This document shows, in pieces, positions 30,378 to 50,577 of a stretch of DNA of 64,000 nt. The notes under the pieces are model-generated. The model saw only the letters and a list, made by a program, of their open reading frames with translations. It made no database searches and was not told the DNA's origin. A program made the position numbers and the translations under genes. Location: assembly GCF_023896955.1 (NCBI RefSeq), contig NZ_JAMHIW010000013.1, positions 62,001-126,000 of the forward strand. The letters are read 5' to 3'. Source of the stretch: Micromonospora sp. RHAY321. Its GTDB lineage: Bacteria; Actinomycetota; Actinomycetes; Mycobacteriales; Micromonosporaceae. Each line of letters starts with the position of its first letter. The first letter of the stretch is position 1.

Positions 30378-30638
<261 letters not shown>

Positions 30639-30666
30639 TCCCGCCCTTCTCGACCGGGAGGTAACC

Positions 30667-32027: not shown

Positions 32028-32070
32028 GCGGCTCCGCCGCCCAGCGTTGGGGCGGCTCCGCTGCCCAGCG
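32028..32070. repeat. 19-bp direct repeat between atpH and atpA
   Basis: GCGGCTCCGCCGCCCAGCG (32028-32046) recurs with one change at 32052-32070, starting right after the atpH stop. A TTGACA hexamer at 32076-32081 follows and could be the -35 of an internal promoter, but no convincing -10 sits at the right spacing. Confidence 0.5.
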
Positions 32071-32143
32071 CCCGATTGACAGACGCCATTCGGACCGGTC
32101 GGTACTAGGTATCCCGGGCCCCTGAATTTTAAGGAAGCAGAGG

Positions 32144-33796
32144 ATGGCCGAGCTGACCATCTCGACGGAGGAGATCCGCGGCGCCCTGGAGCGCTACGTC
32201 TCCTCCTACTCGACCGACGTCTCCCGCGAGGAGGTCGGCACCGTCGCCGACACCGGTGACGGCATCGCCCACGTCGAGGGCCTGCCCTCGACCAAGACCA
32301 ACGAGCTCCTGGAGTTCGAGGACGGCACGCTCGGCGTGGCGCTGAACCTCGACGTCCGGGAGATCGGTGTCGTCGTTCTCGGTGACTCCGCCAAGCTGGA
32401 GGAGGGGCAGCGCGTCAAGCGCACCGACCGCGTGCTCTCCGTGCCGGTCGGCGACGCCTTCCTCGGCCGCGTGGTCAACGCGCTCGGCCAGCCGATCGAC
32501 GGCCTCGGCGACATCGCCGACGAGGGCTACCGCGAGCTGGAGCTGCAGGCTCCGAACGTGATGTCCCGGCAGTCGGTGTTCGAGCCGCTGCAGACCGGCA
32601 TCAAGGCCATCGACGCGATGACGCCGGTCGGCCGGGGCCAGCGGCAGCTGATCATCGGTGACCGGAAGACCGGCAAGACCACGGTCGCCCTGGACGCCAT
32701 CCTCAACCAGCGGGACAACTGGCGCACCGGCGACCCGAAGAAGCAGGTCCGCTGCATCTACGTCGCCATCGGCCAGAAGGCCTCCACGATCGCCTCCATC
32801 AAGGGCCAGCTGGAGGAGGCGGGCGCGATGGAGTACACCACCATCGTGGCCTCCCCGGCGTCGGACCCGGCGGGCTTCAAGTACATCGCCCCCTACACCG
32901 GCTCGTCCATCGGGCAGCACTGGATGTACGGCGGCAAGCACGTCCTGATCGTCTTCGACGACCTGAGCAAGCAGGCCGAGGCGTACCGGGCCGTCTCGCT
33001 GCTGCTGCGCCGCCCGCCGGGCCGTGAGGCGTACCCGGGTGACGTCTTCTACCTGCACTCCCGCCTGCTGGAGCGCTGCGCGAAGCTCTCCGACGAGCTG
33101 GGTGGCGGCTCGATGACCGGTCTGCCGATCATCGAGACGAAGGCCAACGACATCTCGGCCTTCATCCCGACCAACGTCATCTCGATCACCGACGGCCAGA
33201 TCTTCCTGGAGACCGACCTGTTCAACCAGGGCGTCCGTCCGGCGATCAACGTCGGCACCTCGGTCTCCCGGGTCGGTGGCGCCGCGCAGGTGAAGCCGAT
33301 GAAGAAGGTCGCCGGTTCGCTGCGGCTCAACCTGGCCCAGTACCGCGAGCTGGAGGCGTTCGCCGCCTTCGCCTCCGACCTGGACAAGGCCTCCCGGGCC
33401 CAGCTGGACCGCGGTTCGCGCCTGGTCGAGCTGCTCAAGCAGCCGAACTACTCGCCGTTCCCGGTGCAGGAGCAGGTCGTCTCGGTCTGGGCCGGCACCG
33501 AGGGCAAGCTGGACGACATTCCGGTGGGTGACGTCCGGCGCTTCGAGTCGGAGTTCCTCCAGTACCTGCGGCACAAGCACGCGGGTGTGCTGGCCGGGAT
33601 CGCCGACAACCAGTGGAACGACGACATCATCGGCTCCCTGGACAACGCGATCAGCGAGTTCAAGCAGGTCTTCCTCGGCAAGGGCGACGAGCGTCGGATC
33701 AACGACGCGCCGGCCGCGCCGCTGGAGGGCGAGGAGAACCGCGAGACGGTGACCCGCTTCCGCGACGGCGCGACCGACCGCCCGGCCGAGAGCTGA
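32144..33796 (+). CDS. atpA: ATP synthase F1 subunit alpha
   Basis: Non-catalytic nucleotide-binding subunit of the F1 hexamer, 550 residues. The P-loop GDRKTGKTT starts at residue 172. The Q-loop/arginine-finger region is recognisable in [27 protein letters not shown] lies just before the ATG. The C-terminal ~35 residues ([18 protein letters not shown] onward) form an acidic tail that is variable among actinobacteria. It is followed by atpG after 4 bp. Confidence 0.98.
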
Positions 33797-33800
33797 TCCC

Positions 33801-36166
<2,366 letters not shown>

Positions 36167-36188
36167 CAAGCTCGATCTGATCGGAAAT

Positions 36189-36222
36189 AAAAGACTGCCC
36201 CGGCAATGCCGGGGCAGTCTTT
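36189..36222 (+). terminator. Strong Rho-independent terminator after atpD
   Basis: A fully paired 15-16-bp stem (arms within 36189-36204 and 36208-36222) with a 3-nt loop is flanked by A and T tracts (AAAAG ... CTTTTG). It is the most canonical terminator in the window and lies between atpD and the LCP gene. Confidence 0.92.
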
Positions 36223-36333
36223 TGTTCATCTTCAGGACCTACCATCGCCGCAGTCCGTTTCTTGCGGTCGTCGGTTCCGCGCCACCCGAGATACGGTCGT
36301 TCCGCGCGTTCACCTGAACGAGCGTTGATCTTT

Positions 36334-36361
36334 GCAACCTTTCGGCTACGTGCGCCCGTCT
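36334..36361 (+). promoter_or_regulatory. Possible ECF-sigma-type promoter of the LCP gene
   Basis: GCAACCT (36334-36340) and CGTCT (36357-36361) are spaced as expected for extracytoplasmic-function sigma promoters (AAC in the -35, CGTC in the -10, 18 bp between AAC and CGTC). This agrees with an envelope-stress role for LCP genes but rests on two short matches. Confidence 0.35.
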
Positions 36362-36394
36362 CCTGGATCGTGGGCGTAACGATCGGAGATTCTC

Positions 36395-37531
36395 GTGGGT
36401 AAGGCCGGCAAGAGTGGCCGAAAGTCGTCCGTCTGGCGGGGTGTGCCGCGCTGGGCCAGGATCTGCACGGTGTTCGGCACGGTGCTGATGGTGCTCAGCG
36501 GGGCGGTGCTGGTCGGCACCGAGGTGCTGATCGCCCGCTACGAGGGCGCGGTCGGCAAGGCCGACCTCTTCGGCGACCAGGCGGCCGGGGCGCAGGCGAA
36601 GAAGGCGGACATCAAGGGCCCGCTCAACATCCTGCTGGTCGGTATCGACCCCCGCAGCCCGACCGCGCTGCCGCTGGCCGACTCGATCATGGTGCTGCAC
36701 GTGCCGGCCACCATGGACCGCGCGTACCTCTTCTCGCTGCCCCGCGACCTGTACGTCGACATCCCGGCGTTCTCCAAGGCGGACTTCAACGGCACCACCG
36801 ACAAGATCAACGCCTCGATGTCGTTCGGCAGTCGGGTGCCCGGCAAGAACCCCGACGCGGCACGCGGCTTCGAACTGCTGGCGACCACCGTGCAGAAGGT
36901 GACCGGCATCAAGCGCTTTGACGCCGGAGCGATCATCAACTTCACCGGCTTCCAGAAGATCGTGGACGCGATGGGCGGCGTCGACATGTACGTCGAGCGG
37001 GAGGTCAGGTCCGAGCACAAGCAGCCGGACGGCAAGCCGCGCCCCGGTAACACGCGCGGCGAGGGCTACGTCGGCCCGCAGGCGGTCTACAAGAAGGGCA
37101 ACCACCACCTCAGCGGGTGGCAGGCCCTCGACTACGTCCGCCAGCGCTACCCGAAGAACGGTGTCCCGGACGCCGACTACGGCCGGCAGCGCCACCAGCA
37201 GCAGTTCGTCAAGGCGATGGTGGGGCAGGCGTTCAGCGCCGACGTGGTCGCCAACCCGATCAAGCTCGACAAGGTGCTCCGCGCCGCCGGGCAGTCGCTG
37301 ATCTTCAACGGTCGCGGCAACAGCGTCGTCGACTTCGGCATCGCCCTGAAGAACATCCGGCCGAACACCATTGAGATGATCAAGTTGCCCGGTGGGCCGG
37401 TCTTCGAGGGCTCGAAGTACAAGGGTGAACAGTTCCAGCCAGGCGTGTCGGACTTCTTCACCGCCCTGCACAATGAACAACTGGACCCGTTCCTGCTCGA
37501 GCATCCGGAGTTCCAGAACAAGACCAAGTAG
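36395..37531 (+). CDS. LytR-CpsA-Psr family cell-wall glycopolymer ligase
   Basis: 378-residue membrane-anchored protein. A short basic cytoplasmic N-terminus (MGKAGKSGRKSS) precedes one membrane helix (~22-46), followed by an extracellular LCP domain (~75-290). LCP enzymes transfer polymers such as teichoic acids or arabinogalactan from lipid carriers to peptidoglycan. Conserved elements are NILLVGID, SLPRDLYVDIP with its pyrophosphate-binding arginine, DKINASMSFG, VDAMGGVDMYV and ALDYVRQRY ... GRQRHQQQF. It starts at a GTG preceded by CGGAGA. Its place between atpD and atpC is unusual. Confidence 0.9.
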   Translation: MGKAGKSGRKSSVWRGVPRWARICTVFGTVLMVLSGAVLVGTEVLIARYEGAVGKADLFGDQAAGAQAKKADIKGPLNILLVGIDPRSPTALPLADSIMVLHVPATMDRAYLFSLPRDLYVDIPAFSKADFNGTTDKINASMSFGSRVPGKNPDAARGFELLATTVQKVTGIKRFDAGAIINFTGFQKIVDAMGGVDMYVEREVRSEHKQPDGKPRPGNTRGEGYVGPQAVYKKGNHHLSGWQALDYVRQRYPKNGVPDADYGRQRHQQQFVKAMVGQAFSADVVANPIKLDKVLRAAGQSLIFNGRGNSVVDFGIALKNIRPNTIEMIKLPGGPVFEGSKYKGEQFQPGVSDFFTALHNEQLDPFLLEHPEFQNKTK

Positions 37532-37620
37532 TCGTGGCCCAGCTCTCCCCACCCGCGTTGGGGGCGCGTCGGCCAGCCGACTAGACTTTCGACGATCCGT
37601 CGCCGCAGCAAGGAGACAGC

Positions 37621-37902
37621 GTGGCACAGCAGCTTCACGTCGAGCTCGTCGCCGTCGAGGAGAAGGTCTGGTCCGGTGAGGCCGAGATGGTCGTCGCCCG
37701 GACGACCGAAGGTGAGCTCGGTGTCCTGCCGGGGCACGCGCCGTTGCTCGGCCAGCTCGCCGAGCCCGGCCAGGTACGCATCAAGCTCGCCGGTGGCCAG
37801 CAGGTCGCCTACGACGTTGACGGCGGCTTCCTCTCGGTGAGCGCCGACGGCGTCACCGTGCTGGCCGAGAGCGCTACCCCGGTCTCCGCGCAGAGCCACT
37901 GA
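37621..37902 (+). CDS. atpC: ATP synthase F1 subunit epsilon, short form
   Basis: 93-residue epsilon subunit starting at a GTG preceded by AAGGAGAC. Residues ~1-85 are the beta-sandwich ([58 protein letters not shown]). The protein ends eight residues later, so the C-terminal helical hairpin that makes epsilon inhibitory elsewhere is absent; usual lengths are ~120-140. Only 12 bp separate it from the DUF2550 gene, so no frameshifted remainder is hidden. It is separated from atpD by a terminator and the LCP gene and must be expressed from another promoter. Confidence 0.93.
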
Positions 37903-37914
37903 GCCGTACCGGGG

Positions 37915-38370
37915 ATGGAGATCGTCGAGGGAATCGGGATCGGCGTCGCGGTCATCCTCGGCGCGGTCCTCATCCTCTTCGTCCGGCGGGCACTGGTCAC
38001 CCGTAGCGGGGGCATCATCCGGCTCAGCGTCCGGGTCACCACCATGCTCGACGGCCGCGGCTGGTCGCCAGGCTTCGGTCGGTTCGCCGGCGACGAACTG
38101 CGCTGGTACCGGATGTTCAGCTTCGCGCTACGACCCAAGCGCGTCCTGTCCCGCAAAGGGCTCGCGGTGGAGCGCCGCCGGTTGCCCGAGGGGCAGGAAC
38201 GCCTCTCCATGCCGGCCGACTGGGTGATCCTCCGCTGTACCAGTCACCACGCACCGGTGGAGATCGCCATGGCGCGGTCGACGGTGACCGGTTTCCTCTC
38301 CTGGCTCGAGGCCGCCCCTCCGGGGGCGGTCTCGCCGCGTATGGCGTCCCAAGACTGGCCTGCTGCCTGA
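37915..38370 (+). CDS. DUF2550 membrane-anchored protein
   Basis: 151-residue protein with one N-terminal membrane helix (~5-25, GIGIGVAVILGAVLILFVRR) and a cytoplasmic beta-rich domain (SVRVTTMLDGRGWSPGFGRF, RWYRMFSFALRPKRVLSRKG). It matches DUF2550, which I recall following atpC in mycobacteria and Streptomyces. Function is unknown. It lies 12 bp downstream of atpC and is probably co-transcribed. Confidence 0.85.
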   Translation: MEIVEGIGIGVAVILGAVLILFVRRALVTRSGGIIRLSVRVTTMLDGRGWSPGFGRFAGDELRWYRMFSFALRPKRVLSRKGLAVERRRLPEGQERLSMPADWVILRCTSHHAPVEIAMARSTVTGFLSWLEAAPPGAVSPRMASQDWPAA

Positions 38371-38394
38371 CCCGCCTTCGCTCTGTCACCGTTG

Positions 38395-38466
38395 GGGTTT
38401 CCGGGGAGCCCACCCGCTCCGGGCGGTCAGGCTTGATCCCTCCGCGGGCGGGCTCCCCGGAAACCC
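38395..38466. repeat. Conserved-loop hairpin, copy A
   Basis: Arms 38395-38417 and 38444-38466 pair at 22 of 23 positions. The 26-nt loop (38418-38443) begins TCCGGGCGGTCAGG and ends CTTGATCCCTCC. The same loop, with one base changed, occurs in copy B at 46274-46299 on a stem of different sequence. A short downstream motif, CTGTCCGTC at 38477-38485, is also shared. It sits between two convergent genes and may double as a terminator. Confidence 0.85.
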
Positions 38467-38511
38467 TCGCGGGGCACTGTCCGTCGTTCAGGCGCGGTTT
38501 CCTGCCTGCCG

Positions 38512-38934
38512 TTACCGGTCTGGGATGGCGACGAGTTCCACCTCGTAGCCCTGGTTGTCGGTGAGGTAGGCGGCGTAGGTGGCCGGGCCGCCGGCATGTG
38601 GATGGCGGTCCGGGAAGAGCAGGGTCCACCCGTGAGTCGGTGCGGTCGCCACCAGGCGGTCCACGGCGGCCGGTGGGCCGGCGTGGAAGGCCAGGTGGTT
38701 GAGCCCCGGGGCGAGCCGGTCGTGGACCGCCCCGGAGAGCGCGGGTGACTGCTCCAGCACCAGGTAGGTCGGTCCGAGTCGCCAGGAGCGTCCGGCCGGC
38801 CAGTCCTGGTGGACGGTCCAGCCCAGCTCGCCGAGGAGCCAACCCCAGCTACGCGTGGCAGCCCCGAGATCGGGAACCCAGACCTCGACGTGGTGCAGCG
38901 CGCCGACGGTCAGCGCTTCCCGCCCGGCACCCAT
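38512..38934 (-). CDS. VOC/glyoxalase superfamily protein
   Basis: 140-residue single-domain protein of the vicinal oxygen chelate fold. Visible motifs are LHHVEVWVPDLGAATRSW at the start, NHLAFHAG in the middle and GYEVELVA at the end. These place candidate metal ligands at the N-terminal His, the central His and the C-terminal Glu. Such proteins act as glyoxalases, dioxygenases or resistance proteins; the specific reaction is not evident. I chose the ATG at 38934; it overlaps the end of the adenosyltransferase gene by 25 bp, suggesting an operon. Confidence 0.8.
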   Translation of the reverse strand: MGAGREALTVGALHHVEVWVPDLGAATRSWGWLLGELGWTVHQDWPAGRSWRLGPTYLVLEQSPALSGAVHDRLAPGLNHLAFHAGPPAAVDRLVATAPTHGWTLLFPDRHPHAGGPATYAAYLTDNQGYEVELVAIPDR

Positions 38935-39482
38935 AGCACATCTCCCGCCGGATTTGCCGTTCTTGACAGGATAAAGAGCAGATCGGAGAGCCGGTTGAGA
39001 TACTTTGCCGGGAGCGTGCTGGTGCGGTCCGGATCGTGGCTGACCAGCGCCCACGCTGCCCGTTCGGCACGCCGGGCGATGGTCCGCGCCACGTGCAGCA
39101 GCGCCGCGCCCGCGGTGCCGCCGGGGAGGATGAAGGAGTCGAGCTTGCTCAGGCGTGCGTTGTACTCGTCGCACCAGCCCTCGAGGCGCTCGACGTACTC
39201 CTCGGTCACCCGCAGCGGCGGGTACTTCGGGTCCGGCTCGACCGGCGTGGACAGGTCGGCGCCCACGTCGAAGAGGTCGTTCTGCACCGACCCCAGCACC
39301 GCCCGCAGTTCCTCGTCGAGCTGGCCCAGGGCGAGCGCGACACCGATCGCCGCGTTGCACTCGTCGACATCGGCGTACGCGGCGATCCGTGGATCGGTCT
39401 TCGGCACCTGCTCGTTGTTGCTCAGCCTGGTCATGCCGGCATCGCCGGCCTTGGTGTAGATGCGCGTGAGGTGGACGGCCAT
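38910..39482 (-). CDS. Cob(I)alamin adenosyltransferase, PduO type
   Basis: 190-residue ATP:corrinoid adenosyltransferase that makes adenosylcobalamin. The N-terminal [20 protein letters not shown] is the ATP-binding signature (TKTGD-type with Ala). [21 protein letters not shown] and [13 protein letters not shown] are the other PduO motifs, with the conserved Arg and Asp residues intact. Its product is the cofactor of the mutase encoded 4 kb away at 43742. The start codon shares the CATG tetranucleotide with the divergent murA start. The same pairing with murA occurs, as I recall, in mycobacteria. Confidence 0.93.
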
Positions 39483-40923
39483 GACGCACAGCCTACGGAT
39501 ACCGGACCTGACGATCCCGGCGCGGCCGGACACCACCGCCGGCTGGCCGGCGGTGGTGGGTCCCGGCGACGCGGGCGATCCCGCGGTCAACGACGTCGAT
39601 GTCATCCGGGTACGCGGTGACGCCCGCCTGGCGGGCACCGTGCACGTGGTGGGTGCCAAGAACTCGGCGTTGAAGCTGATGGCCGCCGCGCTGCTCGCAC
39701 CCGGCCGCAGCGTGATCACCAACGTCCCCCGGATCACCGACATCGCGATCATGGGGGAGGTGCTGCGCCGGCTGGGCTGCGAGGTCCGGTTCGACGCGGA
39801 CGACCCGGTCGACCCGATGGTCGCCCGGGGTGGGGTGGCCCGGTCCCGCTCGGTGACCATCGACGTGCCCGACCAGCCGGGCGCGGACGCGGACTACGAC
39901 CTGGTCCGCCGGCTGCGCGCGTCGATCTGCGTGCTCGGCCCCCTGCTGGCCCGCCGGGGGTTCGTGCGGGTGGCTCATCCGGGTGGCGACGCGATCGGCT
40001 CCCGTGGCCTGGACATGCACGTCTCCGGGCTGACCCGGATGGGCGCGGACATCTCCGGTGAGCACGGGTTCGTCATCGCGTCCGCCCCGCACGGGCTGCG
40101 CGGCGCGGACATCGTGCTGGACTTCCCGAGCGTGGGCGCGACCGAGAACCTCGTGATGGCGGCGGTGCTGGCCGAGGGCACCACCACGATCGACAACGCG
40201 GCGCGGGAGCCGGAGATCGTCGACATCTGCACCATGCTCAACCAGATGGGCGCCCAGATCTCCGGGGCGGGCACGTCCACCCTGCAGATCACCGGGGTGC
40301 CCGGGCTGCGCCCCGTGCGGCACGCCACGGTGGGGGACCGGATCGTCGCCGGCACCTGGGCGTTCGGCGCGGCGATGACCCGCGGCGACGTGACGGTGAC
40401 CGGGCTGGACCCGGCCTACCTCGAGGTCGCGCTGGACAAGGTGGTCGCGGCCGGCGGCCTGGTCGAGACGCGGGGCGACGGCTTCCGGGTACGGATGGAC
40501 GACCGGCCGCGGGCGGTCGACGTGGTCACGCTGCCGTACCCCGGCTTCGCCACCGACCTGCTGCCGATGGCGATCGGGCTCGCCGCGGTCAGCGACGGTG
40601 CCTCGCTGATCACCGAGAACATCTTCGACGGCCGGTTCATGTTCGCCAACGAGATGGCCCGCCTCGGCGCGGACATCAAGACCGACGGGCACCACGCGGT
40701 GGTGCGGGGCCGGGACCGGCTCTCCGGGGCGCCGGTGCGGGCCACCGACATCCGCGCGGGAGCGGGGCTGATCATCGCCGGGCTCTGCGCGGACGGGGTC
40801 ACCGAGGTGTCCCACGTGCACCACGTCGACCGGGGCTATCCGGACTTCGTGGCCGACCTGCGTGCGCTCGGCGTGGCCGTCGAGAGGGGCACCACGCCGG
40901 AGGAGCCCTCGCTGGAGATCTGA
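39481..40923 (+). CDS. murA: UDP-N-acetylglucosamine 1-carboxyvinyltransferase
   Basis: Transfers enolpyruvate from PEP to UDP-GlcNAc, the first committed step of peptidoglycan synthesis. The core starts at [20 protein letters not shown], with [15 protein letters not shown]. The residue equivalent to E. coli Cys115 is aspartate (D170, in [15 protein letters not shown]; codon 39988-39990), as in mycobacteria, which predicts fosfomycin insensitivity. The ATG at 39481 gives 480 residues, about 40 longer at the N-terminus than most MurA, and has GAGGTGG at suitable spacing. A GTG at 39556 is a reasonable alternative start. Confidence 0.93.
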
Positions 40924-40933
40924 GGGCACTCCC

Positions 40934-40949
40934 TTAGCCGTCGTTCAGG
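40934..40949 (+). promoter_or_regulatory. Shared acyl-CoA regulon motif upstream of the hbd gene
   Basis: TTAGCCGTCGTTCAGG, 51-66 bp upstream of the start codon. It matches the motifs upstream of the tandem dehydrogenase gene, ccr and the ethylmalonyl-CoA mutase gene. It is probably an operator of one transcription factor. Confidence 0.55.
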
Positions 40950-40999
40950 CCCGCCGACTAGGGTGCAGGCAGGCACTCAAACAGGCGAGGGAGAAGCAG

Positions 41000-41848
41000 A
41001 TGGCGGGTCGACTCGCGGTCGTCGGGGCCGGGCTGATGGGCTCCGGCATCGCCCAGGTGGCGGCGCAGGCGGGCTGGCAGGTGACGCTGCGCGACCTGGA
41101 CGACGCGGCCACCACCCGAGGGCTCGGCGGCATCCGGAAGTCGCTGGAGAAGTTCGCCGAGAAGGGCAAGATCGAGGCGTCCGAGGTCGAGGCGACGCTC
41201 GCCCGGATCACCCCGACCACCGACCTGGAAGCGGCGGCGGACGCGGACATCGTGGTCGAGGCGGTCTTCGAGCGCCTCGAGATCAAGCACGAGGTGTTCC
41301 GCGCCCTGGACAAGATCTGCAAGGCCGACGCGGTGCTCGCCACCAACACCTCGGCCATCCCGGTCACCCAGATCGCCGCGGTCACCGAGCGGCCCGAGGC
41401 GGTCGTCGGCACCCACTTCTTCTCCCCGGTGCCGATGATGCAGCTCTGCGAGCTGGTCCGCGGCTACAAGACCAGCGACGCCACCCTGGCCACCGTGCGG
41501 GCCTTCGCCGAGGAGATCGGCAAGACGGTGGTGGTGGTCAACCGGGACATCGCCGGCTTCGTCACCACCCGGCTGATCTCCGCCCTCGTGGTGGAGGCGG
41601 TCAAGCTGGTCGAGTCCGGCGTGGTGTCCGCCGAGGACCTGGACACCGCCTGCCGGCTGGGCTTCGGGCACGCCATGGGCCCGTTGGCCACCACCGACCT
41701 GACGGGCGTGGACGTGCTGCTGCACGCCTCGAAGAACATCTACACCGACACGGCCGACGAGAAGTTCTTCCCGCCGGAGCTGCTCCAGCGGATGGTCACC
41801 GCAGGCGACCTGGGCCGCAAGACCGGCAAGGGCTTCTACACGTACTGA
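41000..41848 (+). CDS. 3-hydroxybutyryl-CoA dehydrogenase
   Basis: 282-residue enzyme that oxidises or reduces 3-hydroxyacyl-CoA, most likely acetoacetyl-CoA/3-hydroxybutyryl-CoA. The ATG at 41000 has GCGAGGGAGAAG upstream and gives the Rossmann motif GAGLMGSG at residues 9-16. The catalytic His lies in GTHFFSPVPMMQL, and the Asn/Ser pair in NTSAIPVTQI. The 3HCDH C-terminal domain starts near GFVTTRLISALVVEAVKL and ends GRKTGKGFYTY. Size matches BHBD/Hbd rather than the longer fatty-acid oxidation enzymes. It fits polyhydroxybutyrate or ethylmalonyl-CoA metabolism. Confidence 0.93.
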   Translation: MAGRLAVVGAGLMGSGIAQVAAQAGWQVTLRDLDDAATTRGLGGIRKSLEKFAEKGKIEASEVEATLARITPTTDLEAAADADIVVEAVFERLEIKHEVFRALDKICKADAVLATNTSAIPVTQIAAVTERPEAVVGTHFFSPVPMMQLCELVRGYKTSDATLATVRAFAEEIGKTVVVVNRDIAGFVTTRLISALVVEAVKLVESGVVSAEDLDTACRLGFGHAMGPLATTDLTGVDVLLHASKNIYTDTADEKFFPPELLQRMVTAGDLGRKTGKGFYTY

Positions 41849-41858
41849 GCGGGACATG

Positions 41859-41891
41859 GAAAGGGGCGGGCGCGCGGCGCCCGCCCCTTTC
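41859..41891. terminator. Bidirectional terminator hairpin
   Basis: A perfect 15-bp stem (GAAAGGGGCGGGCGC with its complement) and a 3-nt loop lie 11 bp after the hbd stop and 6 bp from the end of the opposing ABC permease gene. Confidence 0.85.
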
Positions 41892-41896
41892 TCGTG

Positions 41897-42742
41897 TCAG
41901 CCGTCGCGCTTGGTGGTCCACCGGAAGGTGGTCAGGCAGAGCACCACGCCGATCACGCACCACAGGGCCAGCACCACCGCCACCCGGCCCAGCTCGAACG
42001 AGCCACCCGGTTCCTGCGCGCCGAAGCTCTCCGGCAGGAAGACCGACCGCAGCCCCTGGCACATCCACTTGAGCGGGAACAGCGCGGCCACCTGCTGCAT
42101 CCACGTGGGCAGGTCGGTGAAGACGAAGAACACGCCGGAGATGAACTGGAGCACCAGGGCGACCGGGGTGACCACCGCCGAGCCGCTGCGGGCGGTGCGG
42201 GCCAGCGACGAGATGGCGATGCCGCACAGGGTGCAGGCGGTCACGCCGAGCACGGCGACCCAGCCGAAGGTGAACCATTTCCCGGCGGTGCCCGGTAGGT
42301 CGAGGTCGAACAGGGCCACCGCGACCGCCAGCAGCAGCGCCGTCTCGGCGATGCCGATCGCCACCACCATGATCACCTTGCCGGCGAACCAGACCCACTT
42401 CGGCATCGGCGTGCCGCGGTAGCGCTTGAGCACGCCCCGGTCCCGCTCGATCGGGATCCAGATGCCGAGGTTCTGGAAGCTCACCGTCATCAGACCGGTC
42501 GCGATCATGCCGGTGATGAAGTACTGGGTGAACTTGACCCCGCCGCCGATCGTGCCGTCGAAGATCGACGCGAAGATCAGGATCATGATGATGGGGAAGC
42601 CCATCGTGAAGACCACGGACTCCCGGCTGCGCAGGAACTGGGTGATCTCCAGCCGGCCCTGCCGCAGGGCCAGCGCGCCGGCACCGGGCCGACGGCCGAG
42701 GGTCACGGTGACCGGCGTCGCCGGCTTCGTCGTGGTGGTCAT
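41897..42742 (-). CDS. ABC-2 type transporter permease
   Basis: 281-residue membrane protein with about six helices. The first helix includes VFTMGFPIIMILIFASIF, and a FQNLGIWIPIERDRGVLKRYRGTPM segment marks the cytoplasmic loop typical of ABC-2 (DrrB-like) permeases. Its start overlaps the stop of the ATPase gene by 4 bp, so the two are translationally coupled. Such pairs export lipids, drugs or polyketides; the cargo is unknown. Confidence 0.9.
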   Translation of the reverse strand: MTTTTKPATPVTVTLGRRPGAGALALRQGRLEITQFLRSRESVVFTMGFPIIMILIFASIFDGTIGGGVKFTQYFITGMIATGLMTVSFQNLGIWIPIERDRGVLKRYRGTPMPKWVWFAGKVIMVVAIGIAETALLLAVAVALFDLDLPGTAGKWFTFGWVAVLGVTACTLCGIAISSLARTARSGSAVVTPVALVLQFISGVFFVFTDLPTWMQQVAALFPLKWMCQGLRSVFLPESFGAQEPGGSFELGRVAVVLALWCVIGVVLCLTTFRWTTKRDG

Positions 42743-43590
42743 CGCGCGTGTCCGATCATGGTGAGGTAGACGTCCTCCAGGGTCGGCCGGGTCACCGTGA
42801 GGCCGGGGACCTCGCCGCCGTAGCGCGCGGCCAGGTCGGCCACGAGGGCCGTCGGCGTCGCGCTCTGCGCGCTCTCCGGGGTCCCTTCCGGGGTACGCCA
42901 GGAGACCGTCGCCAGCGCTTCCTGCCGGTTGCCCAGCCGGTTCGGTGCGGCCACCTCGACCAGCCGGCCGCCGGCGATCACTCCGACCCGGTCGGCCAGC
43001 GCCTCGGCCTCGTCCAGGTAGTGGGTGGTCAGCACGATGGTGGTGCCGGCCGCGGCGAGGTCGCGGATCAGCTCCCAGAACTCGCGGCGGGCCTCCGGGT
43101 CGAAGCCGGTGGTCGGCTCGTCGAGGAAGAGCAGCTCGGGGCGGCCGATGATGCCGAGCGCCACGTCGAGGCGGCGTTTCTGCCCGCCGGAGAGCGTGTG
43201 CGTGCGGGCCTTCGCCTTGCCGGCCAACCCGACCCGCTCGATCACCTTGTCGGGGTCGTCGGCGTCCGGATAGAAGCCGGAGAAGTGCCGGATCACCTCG
43301 GCCACGGTCAGCTCGTCGAACTCGCCGGTGCCCTGGAGCACGATGCCCACCCGGGAACGCCAGCCCTGATCCGGGTGCGCCGGGTCCGCGCCGAGCACGG
43401 AGACCTCTCCGGCGTCCCGGCTCCGGTAGCCCTCCAGGATCTCCACGGTGGTGGTCTTGCCGGCACCGTTCGGGCCGAGCAGTGCGAACACCTCGCCACG
43501 GTGGACGTCCAGATCCACGCCCGCCACCGCCACGTTGTCGCCGTACGCCTTGCGCAGCCCCCGGACGGAGATGGCCAGCTCGTCATCCAT
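42739..43590 (-). CDS. ABC transporter ATP-binding protein (DrrA-like)
   Basis: 283-residue nucleotide-binding subunit. Walker A GPNGAGKTTT, Q-loop VLQGTGEF, signature LSGGQKRRLDVALG, Walker B LLFLDEPTTGFD and H-loop LTTHYLDEAE are all intact. A C-terminal ~70-residue extension is typical of DrrA-type exporters. I chose the ATG at 43590; upstream in-frame sequence is Arg/Gly-rich and lies in the promoter region shared with the divergent mutase gene 151 bp away. Confidence 0.93.
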   Translation of the reverse strand: MDDELAISVRGLRKAYGDNVAVAGVDLDVHRGEVFALLGPNGAGKTTTVEILEGYRSRDAGEVSVLGADPAHPDQGWRSRVGIVLQGTGEFDELTVAEVIRHFSGFYPDADDPDKVIERVGLAGKAKARTHTLSGGQKRRLDVALGIIGRPELLFLDEPTTGFDPEARREFWELIRDLAAAGTTIVLTTHYLDEAEALADRVGVIAGGRLVEVAAPNRLGNRQEALATVSWRTPEGTPESAQSATPTALVADLAARYGGEVPGLTVTRPTLEDVYLTMIGHAR

Positions 43591-43690
43591 GGCGTCCAGT
43601 GTGCGTCCTGGCCAGCGCGGTCCGCCGCCCGGGGTGTGGCGGTCCGCGCCACTGCGGGCGCTTCGCACCCGGACGTCCGCGACATGGACC

Positions 43691-43704
43691 TGTGTGGTTT
43701 TCCA
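43691..43704. promoter_or_regulatory. Inverted repeat upstream of the mutase gene
   Basis: TGTGGTTTTCCACA, a 5-bp inverted repeat around a TTTT centre, lies 10 bp upstream of the acyl-CoA motif in the divergent promoter region. It may be a second operator. Confidence 0.4.
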
Positions 43705-43713
43705 CAGCCCGTT

Positions 43714-43731
43714 TTACTGAACGGTAACTTA
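43714..43731 (-). promoter_or_regulatory. Shared acyl-CoA regulon motif at the mutase promoter
   Basis: On the minus strand this reads TAAGTTACCGTTCAGT (43716-43731), identical to the ccr copy at 14 of 16 positions. On the plus strand TTACTGAACGGTAA is partly palindromic. It ends 11 bp before the ATG and overlaps a possible -10 (TAAACT, 43729-43734) of a leaderless promoter, so a bound protein would block transcription. Confidence 0.6.
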
Positions 43732-43741
43732 AACTCCGGCC

Positions 43742-45748
43742 ATGGATGAGAAGGCACTTTCGGGGCGGCTGCCCGAGCGGGACCGCCCGTGGGTGATGCG
43801 CACCTACGCCGGCCACTCCTCGGCCGCCGCGACCAACGCCCTCTTCCGCCGAAACCTGGCGAAGGGGCAGACCGGTCTCTCGGTCGCCTTCGACCTGCCC
43901 ACCCAGACCGGGTACGACCCCGACCACGAGCTGGCCAGCGGCGAGGTCGGCCGGGTCGGCGTCCCGGTCGCCCACCTCGGCGACATGCGGGCGCTCTTCG
44001 ACGGCATCCCGCTGGCCGACATGAACACCTCGATGACCATCAACGCGCCGGCGATGTGGCTGCTCGCCCTCTACGGCACGGTGGGGCTGGAGCAGGGCGC
44101 CGAGCTGGTTCGCTGCACGGGCACCACCCAGAACGACATCATCAAGGAGTACCTGTCCCGGGGGACGTACATCTTTCCGCCGGCCGCGTCGCTGCGGCTC
44201 ACCGCCGACGTCGTCGCGTACACCCTGCGCGAGATGCCACGCTGGAACCCGGTCAACATCTGCTCGTACCACCTCCAGGAAGCCGGTGCCACGCCGGTGC
44301 AGGAGGTCGGCTTCGCGTTGGCCACCGCCGTCGCCGTGCTCGACGCCGTCCGCGACTCCGGGCAGGTGCCCGCCGAGCGGATGGGCGACGTGGTGCAGCG
44401 GATTTCGTTCTTCGTCAACGCCGGGGTGCGCTTCGTCGAGGAGATCGCCAAGATGCGCGCGTTCGGCGTGCTCTGGGATGAGATCACCCGCGACCGGTAC
44501 GGAGTCGGCGAGGCAAGACAGCGGCGGTTCCGCTACGGCGTGCAGGTCAACTCGCTCGGCCTGACCGAGGCGCAACCGGAGAACAACATCCAGCGCATCG
44601 TGCTGGAGATGCTCGGCGTGACGATGTCCCGTGACGCCCGGGCCCGCGCGGTGCAGCTCCCCGCCTGGAACGAGGCGCTCGGCCTGCCCCGACCCTGGGA
44701 CCAGCAGTGGTCGCTGCGGATGCAGCAGGTCCTGGCGTACGAGTCGGACCTGCTCGAATACCCCGACCTCTTCGACGGCTCGCACGTGATGACCGCGCTG
44801 GTCGACGAGATCGTCACCGGGGCCCGGGTCGAACTGGACAAGGTGCTGGAGCTGGGCGGTGTGGTCGCCGCCGTGGAGACCGGCTACCTCAAGAGCGCGC
44901 TGGTCGCCTCGCTGGCGGAGCGCCGCCGCCGGATGGAGTCCGGCGCCGACGTGGTGGTCGGCGTCAACCGGTTCGCCGAGACCGAACCCTCCCCGCTGAC
45001 CGCGGCCGGAGCGGAGGCCGTCGAACAGGTCGACCCGGCGGTCGAGGCCGCCGCCGTGGACGGCGTACGCCGGTGGCGGGCCGACCGGGACGGCGCGGCC
45101 GTCGACGCGGCCCTGGCCCGACTCCGCGCCGACGCCGCGACCACCACGAACCTGATGCCGGCCACCCTGGAGTGCGTGCGGGCCGGGGTGACCACCGGCG
45201 AGTGGGCCGGCGCGCTGCGCCAGGTCTTCGGTGAGTACCGGGCGCCCACCGGGTTGGCCGGCGCCACCGGCACCGGCGGCGACCCCGGCCTCACAGCCGT
45301 CCGTGAGCGGGTCACCGCCACCGCCCGCGAGCTGGGCAGCGGCCGGCTGCGGCTCCTGGTCGGCAAGCCCGGCCTGGACGGGCACTCCAACGGCGCCGAG
45401 CAGATCGCGGTACGCGCCCGAGACGCCGGCTTCGAAGTCGTCTACCAGGGCATCCGGCTGACGGCCGGGCAGATCGTCGCCGCCGCGGTCGAGGAGGACG
45501 TCGACCTGGTCGGGCTCTCCGTGCTCTCCGGCTCGCACCTGGCCGCCGTGCCGGCGGTCCTCGACGGCCTACGCGCGGCCGGCCGGGCGGACCTGCCGGT
45601 GGTCGTCGGCGGCATCATCCCCGCCAGCGACGCCGACACGTTGCGCGCCGCCGGGGTGGCCCGGGTCTTCACCCCGAAGGACTTCGCCCTCACCGGCATC
45701 ATCGACGACCTGGTGACCGTCATCCGCGAGGCGAACGACCTGCCCTGA
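43742..45748 (+). CDS. meaA: B12-dependent acyl-CoA mutase, probable ethylmalonyl-CoA mutase (MeaA/Ecm type)
   Basis: 668-residue single-chain mutase. The N-terminal TIM barrel (~1-520) holds WVMRTYAGHSSA and GLSVAFDLPTQTGYDPDHE, then TTQNDIIKEYLSRGTYIFPP. The C-terminal cobalamin-binding domain has the DxHxxG motif at D546-G551 (LDGHSNG), with LVGLSVLSGSH and VVVGGIIP following. The single-chain form and the MRTYAGHSSAAATNALFRR opening match MeaA, now known as ethylmalonyl-CoA mutase of the ethylmalonyl-CoA pathway, better than two-subunit methylmalonyl-CoA mutase. ccr, encoded at 62393, makes its pathway precursor, and the adenosyltransferase at 38910 makes its cofactor. Methylmalonyl- or isobutyryl-CoA as substrate cannot be excluded by eye. 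Confidence 0.85.
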   Translation: MDEKALSGRLPERDRPWVMRTYAGHSSAAATNALFRRNLAKGQTGLSVAFDLPTQTGYDPDHELASGEVGRVGVPVAHLGDMRALFDGIPLADMNTSMTINAPAMWLLALYGTVGLEQGAELVRCTGTTQNDIIKEYLSRGTYIFPPAASLRLTADVVAYTLREMPRWNPVNICSYHLQEAGATPVQEVGFALATAVAVLDAVRDSGQVPAERMGDVVQRISFFVNAGVRFVEEIAKMRAFGVLWDEITRDRYGVGEARQRRFRYGVQVNSLGLTEAQPENNIQRIVLEMLGVTMSRDARARAVQLPAWNEALGLPRPWDQQWSLRMQQVLAYESDLLEYPDLFDGSHVMTALVDEIVTGARVELDKVLELGGVVAAVETGYLKSALVASLAERRRRMESGADVVVGVNRFAETEPSPLTAAGAEAVEQVDPAVEAAAVDGVRRWRADRDGAAVDAALARLRADAATTTNLMPATLECVRAGVTTGEWAGALRQVFGEYRAPTGLAGATGTGGDPGLTAVRERVTATARELGSGRLRLLVGKPGLDGHSNGAEQIAVRARDAGFEVVYQGIRLTAGQIVAAAVEEDVDLVGLSVLSGSHLAAVPAVLDGLRAAGRADLPVVVGGIIPASDADTLRAAGVARVFTPKDFALTGIIDDLVTVIREANDLP

Positions 45749-45780
45749 CCGGGGCGGACCCGGGTGACCGTCTCGGCAGG

Positions 45781-46077
45781 TCAGCGGCCGTCGTAGGTCA
45801 TGCAGTCGGCCATGTCGTTGTCCGGGCCCACCCTGATCGACGGCGCGTGGCACTCCAACTGCTCGTTGTGCCGGCAGTCCGAACGCTGGCACGCGCCCAC
45901 CTGGGCGATGAGATCGTCCGCGCCGCCGCGGACCGGGGACTCGACGAAGGTGTGGCAGTGCGCGTGATCCATGCTGCCGATCGTGATCGCGAAGGCGTGG
46001 CAGTCACCGGCGCTGTTGTAGGCGCAAGCCGCGACCACGCACTCCTGAACCCGGGGCATCTCCATCGCTGCGGTCAT
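45781..46077 (-). CDS. Cys-rich protein with two DUF1540 repeats
   Basis: 98-residue acidic protein with eight cysteines in two similar blocks. Each block reads C-x4-C-x7-C-x14/15-C (CVVAACAYNSAGDC then HC; CQRSDCRHNEQLEC then DC). This is the DUF1540 pattern, presumed metal-binding. Histidines accompany several cysteines (CHAF, HAHCH, CHAP). AGAGGAGG precedes the ATG at 46077. It is convergent with the mutase gene. Function is unknown; small duplicated DUF1540 proteins are common in actinobacteria and spore formers. Confidence 0.85.
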   Translation of the reverse strand: MTAAMEMPRVQECVVAACAYNSAGDCHAFAITIGSMDHAHCHTFVESPVRGGADDLIAQVGACQRSDCRHNEQLECHAPSIRVGPDNDMADCMTYDGR

Positions 46078-46249
46078 GCCGGCCTCCTCTGGCTCTTGCC
46101 CCGATCCTAGGCTTTTGTCGTCTTCCCGGGCTGGCTATGGCAGCCTGCCGTCGGCGGTGGGCGGGCTTGCCTGTCGGTTTGGCGGGGTCTGTGCTGGTTG
46201 TGGCCAGGACGCCTCCGGTCCCCTGCACTGTGCCGGGTGCGTGGGGGGT

Positions 46250-46323
46250 GGGGTGGGGCCCGCCGTGCCCGGCTCCGGGCGGTCAGGCTTGATCCCTGCG
46301 CCGGGCACGGCGGGCCCCACCCC
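46250..46323. repeat. Conserved-loop hairpin, copy B
   Basis: Arms 46250-46273 and 46300-46323 pair perfectly over 24 bp. The 26-nt loop (46274-46299) differs from copy A at one position, while the stem sequence is unrelated to that of copy A. CTGTCCGTC at 46335-46343 repeats the downstream motif of copy A at nearly the same distance (11 versus 10 nt). No gene ends here, so a simple terminator role is unlikely. Confidence 0.85.
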
Positions 46324-46388
46324 GTCGGTGGTCGCTGTCCGTCCCGGCGCGGCAAGCTCACCCCGGTGGCCGTCGTTGCGGTGGTGGC

Positions 46389-46424
46389 GATACCTGTGAG
46401 GCATAAATATGCCTCTGAGGTATC
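46389..46424. repeat. AT-rich 36-nt palindrome
   Basis: The left arm GATACCTGTGAGGCATA and right arm TATGCCTCTGAGGTATC pair at 15 of 17 positions around a 2-nt AA centre. The core GAGGCATA-AA-TATGCCTC is perfect. Its base composition contrasts strongly with the surrounding very GC-rich DNA. It could be a protein-binding site or a mobile-element remnant. Confidence 0.75.
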
Positions 46425-46654
46425 AGGCGTCTTGCCGAGACCGGCCGGGTGTCGCCTCGTGGTGGGTGATCGACTCGTTGTCGGTGATGTCGTGGGGTCC
46501 TGGGGGTGGGGATGCCCCGATGTCAGGGATGCCGAGTGGATCACCACCGCAGGGGGCCGGTGTGACGCCCGGGACGGTCGGGCGACCTGACCCGGTCGTG
46601 GCCTGTTGTCCGGTTTATGCCGGGTTGACCTGTGACCCGGTGCACCCGTGCGCC

Positions 46655-46938
46655 GGAATGGGGGCCGGCCGGGGGTGGTTACATACCCTGACGATCGCAG
46701 CACCACGGCCCGCCGCCCCGACCCCCAAGGTTGGAATGCCAGGCCCCGGCCGGTCGTTGCAGATCCGCTGAACAACCGCACCAGCACCCGCTCAACGGGG
46801 TGCCAGCGGATGGGCCACCCCCGGAATGAGCCTGGCCCGGCGGTCGTTACACAACCCCTGAACGACCGCAGCACCCGCTCCACCGGGTGCCGCACCCCGG
46901 AATGACTCCGGCCCGGCGGTCGTTACACACAGACCCGG
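46655..46938. repeat. Tandem array of ~76-90-bp structured repeats
   Basis: Units begin with GGAATG at 46655, 46733, 46823 and 46899 (lengths 78, 90, 76 and a partial). Conserved blocks are GGCCCGGCGGTCGTTACACA, CTGAACGACCGC, AGCACCCGCTC and GGGTGCC. In unit 3 these form a 9-bp stem (46840-46848 with 46861-46869) and a 7-bp stem (46871-46877 with 46884-46890). The second stem is kept in unit 2, while the first has one mismatch there. The units are imperfect, so the array is old or selected for structure. Confidence 0.75.
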
Positions 46939-47072
46939 CGCCACGAGCCCCCCGCCCGTGAGCCGCCGAAAAGACTTTCCCCCGTGTTTGAGAAGCGCCG
47001 GACGAGGTGCTTGCACCCGCGTGTCGTTCCCCCGAGCGACCGGGTGTCTACCCCCGTGAAGGAGCTACCCCC

Positions 47073-47630
47073 ATGAACACGATCATCCGTAAGAGCATGC
47101 TGTCCGTTGCTGGTCTCGCGTTCGCCGGTGGTGTGTTCGCCGGCCCGATCGCCGCCCACGCCGCCACCCCGGTCGATGCGAAGCCGGTTGCGGTTGCGGT
47201 GCAGACCGTCAAGCCGCAGGGCGAGCAGTCCCGGATCACCCTGAACGATGAGCAGGTGGCGAACGTGAAGGCGATCATCGCTGCGACGAAGAAGGCGGGT
47301 CTGCCGGAGCGGGCCGCGGTCATCTCGATCGCGACGAGCCTGCAGGAGTCGAAGCTGGAGAACCTGGGCCACCTCGGCGATATGAACGATCACGACTCGC
47401 TGGGCCTGTTCCAGCAGCGGCCGAGTTCGGGTTGGGGTACCCCGGAGCAGATCACCGATCCGGCCTACTCGACGACGGCGTTCCTGAAGGGTTTGAAGCA
47501 GGTCGACGGGTGGCAGGACATGCCACTGACCGACGCCGCGCAGACCGTGCAGGTATCGGCGTACCCGGACGCCTACGCCCAGTGGGAGCAGCAGGCCACC
47601 GACCTGGTCACCCAGCACTGGAACAGCTGA
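47073..47630 (+). CDS. Secreted lysozyme/transglycosylase-like protein
   Basis: 185-residue exported protein. A signal peptide (MNTIIRKSMLSVAGLAFAGG onward) ends at AHA near residue 33. The mature part contains AVISIATSLQESKLENLGH, then DSLGLFQQRPSSGWGTPEQI and YPDAYAQWEQQA. This pattern occurs as the lysozyme-like tail of many actinobacterial wall hydrolases, and the Glu in LQESKL is the likely catalytic acid. A wall-degrading or remodelling role is therefore likely but unproven. GAAGGAG lies 9 bp before the ATG. An unusually long non-coding region precedes it and a strong hairpin follows. Confidence 0.8.
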   Translation: MNTIIRKSMLSVAGLAFAGGVFAGPIAAHAATPVDAKPVAVAVQTVKPQGEQSRITLNDEQVANVKAIIAATKKAGLPERAAVISIATSLQESKLENLGHLGDMNDHDSLGLFQQRPSSGWGTPEQITDPAYSTTAFLKGLKQVDGWQDMPLTDAAQTVQVSAYPDAYAQWEQQATDLVTQHWNS

Positions 47631-47648
47631 CCCGATAGAGCAACCCGA

Positions 47649-47685
47649 CCGCTGGCCGGCACCCGACACGGGTGCCGGCCAGCGG
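47649..47685. terminator. Terminator after the secreted protein gene
   Basis: A perfect 16-bp GC stem (47649-47664 with 47670-47685) and a 5-nt GACAC loop, 18 bp past the stop codon and between convergent genes. Confidence 0.85.
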
Positions 47686-47728
47686 CATGTCTGGACCCGG
47701 CGGGAACCGCTCTGACCAGAGTGGTCTG

Positions 47729-48346
47729 TCAGACGCGGAAGCCGGCGGCGCGGGCTGCCTCGCGTTCCCGGCGACGTTCGGAGCGTCGGCGTACGAACCA
47801 GTAGACGAAGGCGACGAGGCCGAGCAGGAAGGCGAGCACCAGCACCGGCAGGATGATCGCCACCAGGGAGACCACCACGCTGGTGGCGTCCTCGGCGGTG
47901 CTGGCCACCGGGGCACCGAACCCGGCGGTGGTGGCGTTGATCACCGGCCGCGCCGCGGACTTGAGCAGGTGTACGCCCAACGCGAGCAGAACGCCGGTGA
48001 CCACCGGCACCCACTGGTGCGACGAGAAGAAGCTCCCCGGGTCGCTGACCGTCACCGTCTCCGACGACGATCCGGCGCCGAAGGCCAGGCCGCCGGCGGT
48101 GGGGCGGACGACGGTCTGCACCACGTCGTTGACGTGGTCGACCACCGGCACCTTGTCGGCCACCATCTCGACGGCGAGCAGGGCGGCCAGGATGACGATG
48201 ACCCAGCCGTTACCGAGCCAGGTCCAACCGCTGGGCAGGTCGATCAGGTCGGTGTAGCGGGCGAGCAGACCGAGGGTGAGCAGGGGTATGTAGGCGTTCA
48301 GCCCCGCCGAGGCGGCGAGGCCGGTGCCGGTGAGGACTTCGAACAC
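47729..48346 (-). CDS. DUF4126 membrane protein
   Basis: 205-residue protein with about four or five hydrophobic segments. The start [20 protein letters not shown], followed by [18 protein letters not shown], is the DUF4126 signature. The C-terminus is strongly basic ([17 protein letters not shown]) and probably cytoplasmic. Function is unknown. It is divergent from nucS with 71 bp between the start codons. Confidence 0.85.
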
Positions 48347-48417
48347 GGTCTCAGCATCGCACCGACGCGCCAGTGCCGCTCGCTGGCGACCGGTGGGTGC
48401 TCGGCTACCCTCGTCGG

Positions 48418-49077
48418 GTGCGGTTGGTCATTGCGAAGTGCTCGGTGGACTACGTCGGACGGCTCTCGGCTCACCTGCCGCTGGCCACCCGGTTGCTGAT
48501 GGTGAAGGCGGACGGGTCGGTGTCCATCCATGCCGACGACCGGGCGTACAAGCCGTTGAACTGGATGAGCCCCCCGTGTCGGCTGGAGGAGGCCCCCGGC
48601 GTGTGGCGGGTGGTCAACAAGGCCGGCGAGGAGCTGCGGATCACCCTGGAGGAGATCTTCCAGGACACCTCGTACGAGCTGGGGGTGGATCCCGGCCTGC
48701 GCAAGGATGGGGTGGAGGCGCACCTGCAGGAGTTGCTGGCGGCCAACCCGGGCGCGTTGGGTGAGGGGTACACGCTGGTCCGCCGCGAGTACATGACGGC
48801 GATCGGCCCGGTCGACCTGCTCTGCCGCGACGCCAACCAGGGCGCTGTCGCCGTCGAGGTCAAGCGGCGCGGTGAGATCGACGGGGTGGAGCAGCTCACC
48901 CGTTATCTCGAGTTGATGAACCGGGATCCGCTGCTCAGCCCGGTGGCCGGGGTGTTCGCCGCGCAGGAGATCAAGCCGCAGGCCCGGGTGTTGGCCGCCG
49001 ACCGGGGCATCCGGTGCGTGGTCGTCGACTACGACAAGCTGCGCGGCATCGAGAAGGACGAGCTGACCCTCTTCTGA
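48418..49077 (+). CDS. nucS: Mismatch-specific endonuclease NucS (EndoMS)
   Basis: 219-residue nuclease of the non-canonical mismatch repair found in actinobacteria lacking MutS/MutL. The N-terminal DNA-binding/dimerisation domain is followed by a RecB-like nuclease domain with D133 (GPVDLLC) and E147-x-K149 (VEVKRR), then [15 protein letters not shown]. The C-terminus DELTLF resembles a beta-clamp-binding motif, as described for actinobacterial NucS. I chose the GTG at 48418 ([16 protein letters not shown]). TACCCT at 48406-48411 is a likely -10, giving a leaderless mRNA. Upstream in-frame ATG 48373 would fall inside the promoter. Confidence 0.95.
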
Positions 49078-49080
49078 GCG

Positions 49081-50577
49081 TCACCGCCCGTACATCACCT
49101 TGATGGCCTTCACCAGTCGGGCGACGTCGGTCGGGGTGCGCTCGAAGGTCATCGACGGCAGCAGGGACCGGGCCCGCCGGCGGGTGATCGCCTTGGCGCG
49201 GCCGAACTCGCGCAACCCGTCCTCGCCGTGGATCCGCCCGAAGCCGGAGTCGCCGACCCCGCCGAACGGCAGCGTGGACATCCCGGCGAAGGTCAGCGTG
49301 GAGTTGACCGACGCCATTCCGGAGCGCAGCCGTCGGGCGATGGCCACGGCGCGGCGCCGGCCGAAGACCGAACCGCCGAGGCCGTACGACAGGGCGTTGG
49401 CCCGGGTGACGGCCTCGTCGGCGTCGCGGACCCGGCTGATGGTCAGCGTCGGCCCGAAGGTCTCCTCGCGGACGGCGGCCGACTCCTCCGGTACGTCCAC
49501 GAGCACGGTCGGGTGCACGTACGGCGGCTGCACGGCGTTCGGCCCGCCGAGCACGGCGCGCCCGCCGGAGCTGACCGCGGCCTCGATGTGGCGGCGGATC
49601 ACGTCGACCTGGGCGGGCATGGTGATCGGGCCGATGTCGGCGCCCTCCGGCCCGACGGTCAACCGGGCCGCGCGTGCCACCACCTTGTCGACGAAGGCGT
49701 CGAAGATCGGGTCGACGGCGTACACCCGCTCGATGCCGATGCAGGTCTGACCGGCGTTGGTCATGCCGCCCCAGACGCAGGCCTCGGCGGCGGCGTCCAG
49801 GTCGGCGTCGCTGTCGACGATCATGGCGTCCTTGCCGCCGCCCTCGATGAGCACCGGGGTCAGCGTCTCGGCGCAGGCGGCCATCACCTTCCGGGCGGTC
49901 GCCGTGGAGCCGGTGAACGCCAGCTTGTTCACCCCGGAGCGGCACAGGGCCGCGCCCACGTCACCCAGCCCGTGCACGGCGGTGAACACCGGGTGCTCGG
50001 GGACGACCTCGGCGAAGGTGTCCACCATCCACTGGCCGACGGCGGGCGTGTACTCGCTGGGCTTGAGCACGACGGCGTTGCCGGCGGCGAGGGCGTACGC
50101 GGCGGAGCCGATCGGGGTGAAGACGGGATAGTTCCACGGCCCGATCACGCCGACCACGCCGTACGGCTGGTATTCGAGGTGGCCGGAGAACTCGGCGAGG
50201 ATCAGCCGGGACCGCACCCGGCGTGGGCCGAGCACCCGGCCGGCGTTGCGGGCGGCCCAGTCGATGTGCTCGATCGCGGTGACGATCTCGACGATGGCGT
50301 CGGCGACCGGCTTGCCGCCCTCGACGTGCACCAGCTCGGCGAGCTGCTCGATCCGCTTGGCGAGCAGGGCGCGCCAGCGCAGGAGCCGTTGGCGACGACC
50401 GGCGAAGCCGAGACCGGCCCACCACTCGCTGGCGGCGCGGGCGGCCTCGACGGCCTGCCGCACGTCGGCGTCGGTGGCGACGGGGAGGCGACCGGCCTCG
50501 ACGCCGGTGGCCGGGCTGGTGGAGACCAGTTGGCCCGCCTCGATGACCGGGGTTCCCGGGACCTGCACAGCCGTCAT
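49081..50577 (-). CDS. NAD(P)-dependent aldehyde dehydrogenase
   Basis: 498-residue ALDH-superfamily enzyme that oxidises an aldehyde to an acid. The catalytic Cys is C279 in NAGQTCIG, the general base E245 in LIEGGGKDAMIV, and the oxyanion Asn N149 in GPWNYPV; LAFTGSTATARK is the cofactor loop. The EGGGK form differs slightly from the common ELGGK. Among subfamilies it looks nearest to coniferyl- or succinate-semialdehyde-type enzymes, but substrate is open. Stops of this gene and nucS are 3 bp apart. A partial copy of the acyl-CoA motif lies 23-36 bp upstream. Confidence 0.92.
   Translation of the reverse strand: MTAVQVPGTPVIEAGQLVSTSPATGVEAGRLPVATDADVRQAVEAARAASEWWAGLGFAGRRQRLLRWRALLAKRIEQLAELVHVEGGKPVADAIVEIVTAIEHIDWAARNAGRVLGPRRVRSRLILAEFSGHLEYQPYGVVGVIGPWNYPVFTPIGSAAYALAAGNAVVLKPSEYTPAVGQWMVDTFAEVVPEHPVFTAVHGLGDVGAALCRSGVNKLAFTGSTATARKVMAACAETLTPVLIEGGGKDAMIVDSDADLDAAAEACVWGGMTNAGQTCIGIERVYAVDPIFDAFVDKVVARAARLTVGPEGADIGPITMPAQVDVIRRHIEAAVSSGGRAVLGGPNAVQPPYVHPTVLVDVPEESAAVREETFGPTLTISRVRDADEAVTRANALSYGLGGSVFGRRRAVAIARRLRSGMASVNSTLTFAGMSTLPFGGVGDSGFGRIHGEDGLREFGRAKAITRRRARSLLPSMTFERTPTDVARLVKAIKVMYGR

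Follow-up and report, generated by a model that had tools for sequence, protein, structure and literature searches.

The two hairpins in the 64,000-nt stretch of Micromonospora sp. RHAY321 DNA analysed here (the window) belong to a family of short palindromic DNA repeats, apparently not described before, whose members measure ~72–75 nt and carry an apical hairpin of 20 nt on a 20–25-bp stem of almost free sequence. The initial annotation, made from the letters of the window, knew of no described family with this loop, and none emerged here: 12 hairpin loci had no match to the Rfam 15 covariance models at gathering scores, window positions 30000–50000 had no Rfam 15 match to the hairpins at E ≤ 1, and no description of the loop was found in the literature searched.

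As first noted, the 26-nt loops of the two window hairpins differ at one base (CCCTCC vs. CCCTGC). The stem of hairpin 1 contains a single A.C mismatch in 23 pairs and that of hairpin 2 is perfect over 24 pairs (Table 1). The 25-mer CTCCGGGCGGTCAGGCTTGATCCCT is found twice in the window against zero expected matches, and RNA folding yields −59.8 kcal/mol (z = −7.0) for hairpin 1 and −75.7 kcal/mol (z = −9.4) for hairpin 2. The shared motif CTGTCCGTC that had been reported behind the stems does follow both of them, but it occurs in the 3′ flank of only 9/205 family instances and was dropped as a family motif.

Table 1 Hairpin features and neighbouring gene in the window
Feature	Position	Strand	Remark
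DUF2550 gene (PF10739), preceding hairpin 1	37915..38370	+	
Hairpin 1, 5′ arm of stem	38395..38417	+	starts 25 nt past DUF2550 stop codon
Hairpin 1, invariant 20-nt core GGGCGGTCAGGCTTGATCCC, apical bulged hairpin	38421..38440	+	
Hairpin 1, 3′ arm of stem	38444..38466	+	22/23 paired
Hairpin 2, 5′ arm of stem	46250..46273	+	
Hairpin 2, invariant 20-nt core	46277..46296	+	
Hairpin 2, 3′ arm of stem	46300..46323	+	24/24 paired
GGTCGC box behind hairpin 2	46330..46335	+	

Among DUF2550 orthologues of Micromonospora, the hairpin is kept behind the gene in about 12/30; it is broken at loci L086 and L106, and another stem class (L093) or a different palindrome (L081) stands there instead. The stem class of hairpin 2 (class A) has three copies in the genome, each placed at the left edge of a paralogous 1.5-kb unit, ahead of a secreted-protein gene, and at a fourth paralogous site (C12:733339–733400) the hairpin is deleted between short GGTGG repeats. 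These units of ~1.5 kb lie at window 46229–47630 and at G000:C1:688153-, C12:742382-, and C12:733339-; the secreted-protein gene at window 47073–47630 had no Pfam match. Further palindromes lie nearby. An AT-rich one at window 46389–46434, GATACCTGTGAGGCATAAATATGCCTCTGAGGTATC, has similar stretches on both strands at at least 10 places in the genome and is graded here as either a repeat or an operator. Another palindromic repeat, at window 46467–46545 with outer arms TGATCGACTC/GAGTGGATCA, has a dozen related genome copies, and a palindrome similar to it is the one found in place of hairpin 1 behind the L081 DUF2550 gene.

Fifty-one distinct hairpins gave a gap-free alignment of 74 columns, in which paired cells reached 96.5%, compared with 65% after shuffling and 41–57% after sliding, and stem covariation was 0.756 compared with 0.178 when shuffled. 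Double-sided changes were present at 24/24 outer stem pairs. The combination of conserved loop and covarying stem claimed in the initial annotation is real, widespread, and statistically overwhelming. The stems vary freely, and are not conserved in sequence as part of a known IS or REP element. Across 234 instances the 20-nt core hardly varies, although loop conservation is partly built into this pooled sample, which was drawn via the loop. It consists of GGG, a bulged CG, a G.U pair, UCA[GGCU]UGA, and CCC. In Actinomycetaceae, UCA/UGA is exchanged for UGA/UCA, and because this swap of the inner pair (C-G to G-C) is compensatory, the core itself folds as GGG-CG-GUCA[GGCU]UGAU-CCC. Many copies are flanked on either side, at a fixed offset, by a GGTYGC box (65/227 5′ flanks vs. 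16 in control windows; 36/227 3′ flanks vs. 11), and CGTCG is often found behind the stem in one genus only. Locus L101:391 is a chimera whose 5′ arm comes from one stem class and whose 3′ arm comes from another, joined at the common loop, and therefore the loop can act as a crossover point.

The initial annotation allowed that only two copies might exist. Instead, exact matching places the 25-nt loop at seven sites of the 6.9-Mb genome, whereas its reversed control matches nowhere, and a covariance model built from relatives recovers the same seven genome places. With up to 3 mismatches, the loop was found in 52/151 sampled Micromonosporaceae genomes and 16/44 genera at 1–17 copies each, and never with the reversed control. 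Sampling across the order recovered it in most Micromonospora genomes and also in a further family (f76: G796, G873, G883), there on proper stems of unrelated sequence, while most two-mismatch matches elsewhere in the order lacked a stem and were discarded as chance. A few Actinomycetaceae, Trueperella bonasi among them, also carry the exact 20-mer of Table 1, on paired, unrelated, and often AT-rich stems; with up to one mismatch, 7/200 Actinomycetaceae genomes match the 20-mer or its variant. A phylum-wide sample of 397 genomes contained the loop in the genus of the window only. A phage or plasmid origin was rejected, as the viral contigs searched held no exact match to the loop and no similar record was present among the phages and plasmids searched. 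The element also forms short tandem arrays with units of 59–108 nt (L042:7561–7700, L263, L270), and in the L270 array it alternates with a diverged loop variant, GGGCGGTCAAGTTTTCTGAGCC.

With genes predicted by a simple codon-usage gene finder trained on the 64-kb window, a same-strand gene stands before the element at 55/70 independent loci, at a median of 19 nt from the stop codon. Convergent arrangements account for 36 of the 70 loci and divergent ones for 2; tandem arrangements are same-strand at 19 loci and antisense at 6, and 6 loci lie inside predicted genes. Of the two genes that bound a convergent gap, the sense gene is the closer one to the element in 31/36 cases (31:5, p = 1.3e-5), and the excess of same-strand over antisense tandem pairs is likewise significant (p = 0.015). 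The upstream genes, read from their translations, are varied housekeeping genes, such as rplL, gatB, clpC, phosphofructokinase (pfk), and nadA; one copy lies close behind a 5S rRNA gene (G076), and several Actinomycetaceae copies are also directly behind genes. As in intrinsic terminators, a sense-strand hairpin is found just past the stop codon, but the U-tract directly behind the stem is not. The 10 nt behind the stem hold 2.6 T compared with 2.1 farther on, a weak enrichment which indicates that most copies lack a canonical U-tract, and T4–T5 follows the stem in single copies only (e.g., L023 and L256). Copies within genes, of which some lie in both orientations, cannot simply be regarded as terminators. 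At L073, L130, L163, L188, and L228, the elements stand at the very end of predicted opposite-strand genes, where they apparently lengthen the protein C-terminus by ...PTQGSSLTARSGHGRPQPPTAT.

Across eight orthologous locus pairs, 38 stem pairs changed on both sides and 9 on one side, with the extreme pair (L010/L061) carrying 13 two-sided and no one-sided stem changes. The loop is unchanged in 7/8 of these pairs at flank identities of 77–95%, a comparison that lessens the loop-sampling bias, but not fully, since these loci were also found by their loop. Stepwise compensation in an RNA is expected to pass through G.U intermediates. On the sense strand, G.T is rarer than A.C (17 vs. 51 unique contexts; 15 vs. 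31 after collapsing related stems, p = 0.026). The few one-sided changes and the rarity of G.U intermediates suggest arm-to-arm copying at the DNA level by template switching. Alternatively, selection may act on the DNA hairpin or on the opposite strand, and the excess of A.C over G.T on the sense strand would favour the latter if wobble matters. Two further readings were rejected. In genome G174, the DUF2550 and methyltransferase copies differ in stem and each resembles its own orthologues, which argues against homogenisation among the loci of one genome. Insertion of the loop into pre-existing terminators is opposed by the methyltransferase copies described below, in which the stem travels with the loop, and inspection by eye revealed no unoccupied DUF2550 orthologue with the same stem and a plain loop.

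A 72-nt hairpin is also present in frame in 11/31 Micromonospora orthologues of a PF02636 methyltransferase gene, a sample biased towards occupied genes because the search query included the element. These copies are read in one frame throughout, encoding GVSGEPxRSGRSGLIPxRAGSPET, and show an identity of 1.00 in the loop and 0.95 in the arms, compared with 0.46–0.62 at third codon positions of conserved gene parts. The PF02636 genes of other species are without the element or retain fragments of its 5′ arm as relics, several carry a second, inverted copy in the variable linker, and some copies of the element are antisense to the containing gene. We found no clean empty site that showed a target duplication. 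Other linkers contain a different palindrome family instead. A second palindrome family, TTGATCAAGAGGTTTGCGTC with an 18-nt spacer and its inverse, has about a dozen genome copies (e.g., G000:C13:111025–111082) and is in frame in the same methyltransferase linker of other species (L289–L291, L285), where it encodes IKKFAS...DANLLING.

Taken together, we consider it probable, if not firmly so, that the element is a REP/RPE-like dispersed palindrome that usually serves as a terminator-like hairpin at gene ends and whose apical hairpin is read by a putative factor. A near-invariant tip on a freely rewritten stem suggests a cellular reader of that tip, and we infer that a protein recognises the hairpin. 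Copies behind stop codons would most likely act as a terminator or 3′-end hairpin of the upstream gene, given their placement. Selection presumably acts on the nucleic acid itself to preserve the loop, the simplest cause being the binding of a trans-acting factor, and the arms would stay perfect and drift together most simply if one were copied from the other in replication or repair. Copies may have spread within and between genomes, the in-frame methyltransferase insertion included. Several observations count against this reading: the weak T enrichment, the intragenic copies (some of them in both orientations), the missing clean empty site, and the preponderance of A.C over G.T on the sense strand. 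So does the window copy at 46250–46323, which lies in a divergent gap with no sense gene directly before it.

A bolder version is offered tentatively, as a possibility short of even chances: a factor common to distant actinobacterial families would read the invariant 20-nt bulged hairpin, and the stem would be a mere support that the cell rewrites arm to arm at the DNA level, so that the element would be a movable mark of gene ends, universal in its address and self-repairing in its body. It appears rather unlikely, yet deserving of serious weight, that the element is instead a purely selfish mobile palindrome (REP-, RPE-, or MITE-like), with the apical hairpin as a putative transposase or recombinase site, probably in single-stranded DNA, and gene ends merely tolerated or targeted. 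Its in-frame intragenic copies and relics, patchy distribution, inverted pairs and tandem arrays, the other palindrome families in the same linker, and the lack of RNA-type wobble pairs would all be consistent with such an origin, whereas the strong sense orientation would not. Orthologous copies are moreover kept over long divergence with the loop unchanged, which decaying selfish copies would not show. Nor is there a tie to Y1/RAYT transposases (PF01797), which occur in 9/52 genomes with the element and 32/99 others (p = 0.056, in the wrong direction) and are missing from the copy-rich genomes G009, G131, G096, and G001; mobilisation by RAYT/Y1 was rejected for this lack of co-occurrence.

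The initial annotation had proposed a structured RNA or a DNA hairpin recognised by a protein. This is supported in part: loop conservation and stem covariation hold up, the supposed flank conservation does not, and describing the pattern as the hallmark of a structured RNA overstates it, because one-sided changes and G.U pairs are rare and in-frame copies occur in both orientations. We regard it as improbable that the element is a structured RNA of the 3′ UTR on which an RNA-binding protein or base-pairing RNA lands and which contributes little or nothing to termination. The position of copies at 3′ ends on the sense strand, the covarying inner pair of the invariant bulged hairpin, and retention of the element under translation would fit this reading, but G.U is rarer than A.C, one-sided changes are few, and some copies are antisense to the containing gene. 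That these are ordinary intrinsic terminators, whose loops resemble each other for no other reason than recent duplication or homologous exchange, is scarcely credible, for although the three genome copies in paralogous 1.5-kb units and the arms joined at the loop in the L101 chimera agree with exchange, the same loops on unrelated stems in different families already contradict it and the loop stays the same even at flank divergences of 15–23%.

In known palindromic repeats it is the stems or end tags that are conserved, and here the arrangement is reversed, with the loop kept and the stem free. This reversal points to a putative, unrecognised loop-reading factor, for the finding of which the family supplies hundreds of natural variants. 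Two-sided changes without intermediates also form a natural record of the self-correction of bacterial palindromes; such correction can be mistaken for RNA covariation when new RNAs are sought.

Among known systems, SPRITE is likewise a dispersed small repeat with a terminator-like look; the passages describing it mention no fixed apical hairpin on free stems, and the two are set apart by description only. TRIT, from the RNIE work of Gardner and colleagues in 2011, is reportedly a conserved terminator motif of Mycobacterium tuberculosis and would likewise be a lineage-specific, sequence-conserved terminator family in an actinobacterium. Compared by description only, a free stem and in-frame copies are to our knowledge not features of TRIT. 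The Rickettsia palindromic elements (RPE) are described in passages of a later paper as lying between genes and in frame within genes, with an unknown mode of spread, a length of about 150 bp, and a conserved peptide (Ogata et al. 2000, 2002, via PMC10969869). The present element is likewise both intergenic and in frame in protein genes, but it has 72 nt, is conserved at the nucleotide level mainly in the loop, and lies mostly at gene ends; the likeness is one of behaviour only, as the taxa are unrelated. REP elements, as portrayed in passages of PMC3733652, are also short extragenic palindromes, often behind genes and in families that differ between genomes; they carry a terminal GTAG or CGTC tag, stems of 5–13 bp, and a link to RAYT/Y1 transposases, and the phyla named in those passages do not include actinobacteria. 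By comparison, the present element has a stem of 20–25 bp, no visible GTAG tag, a conserved loop, and no Y1 link. It differs from REP in tag, stem size, and Y1 transposase; its behaviour resembles that of RPE and REP, and its placement that of the SPRITE and TRIT terminator repeats.
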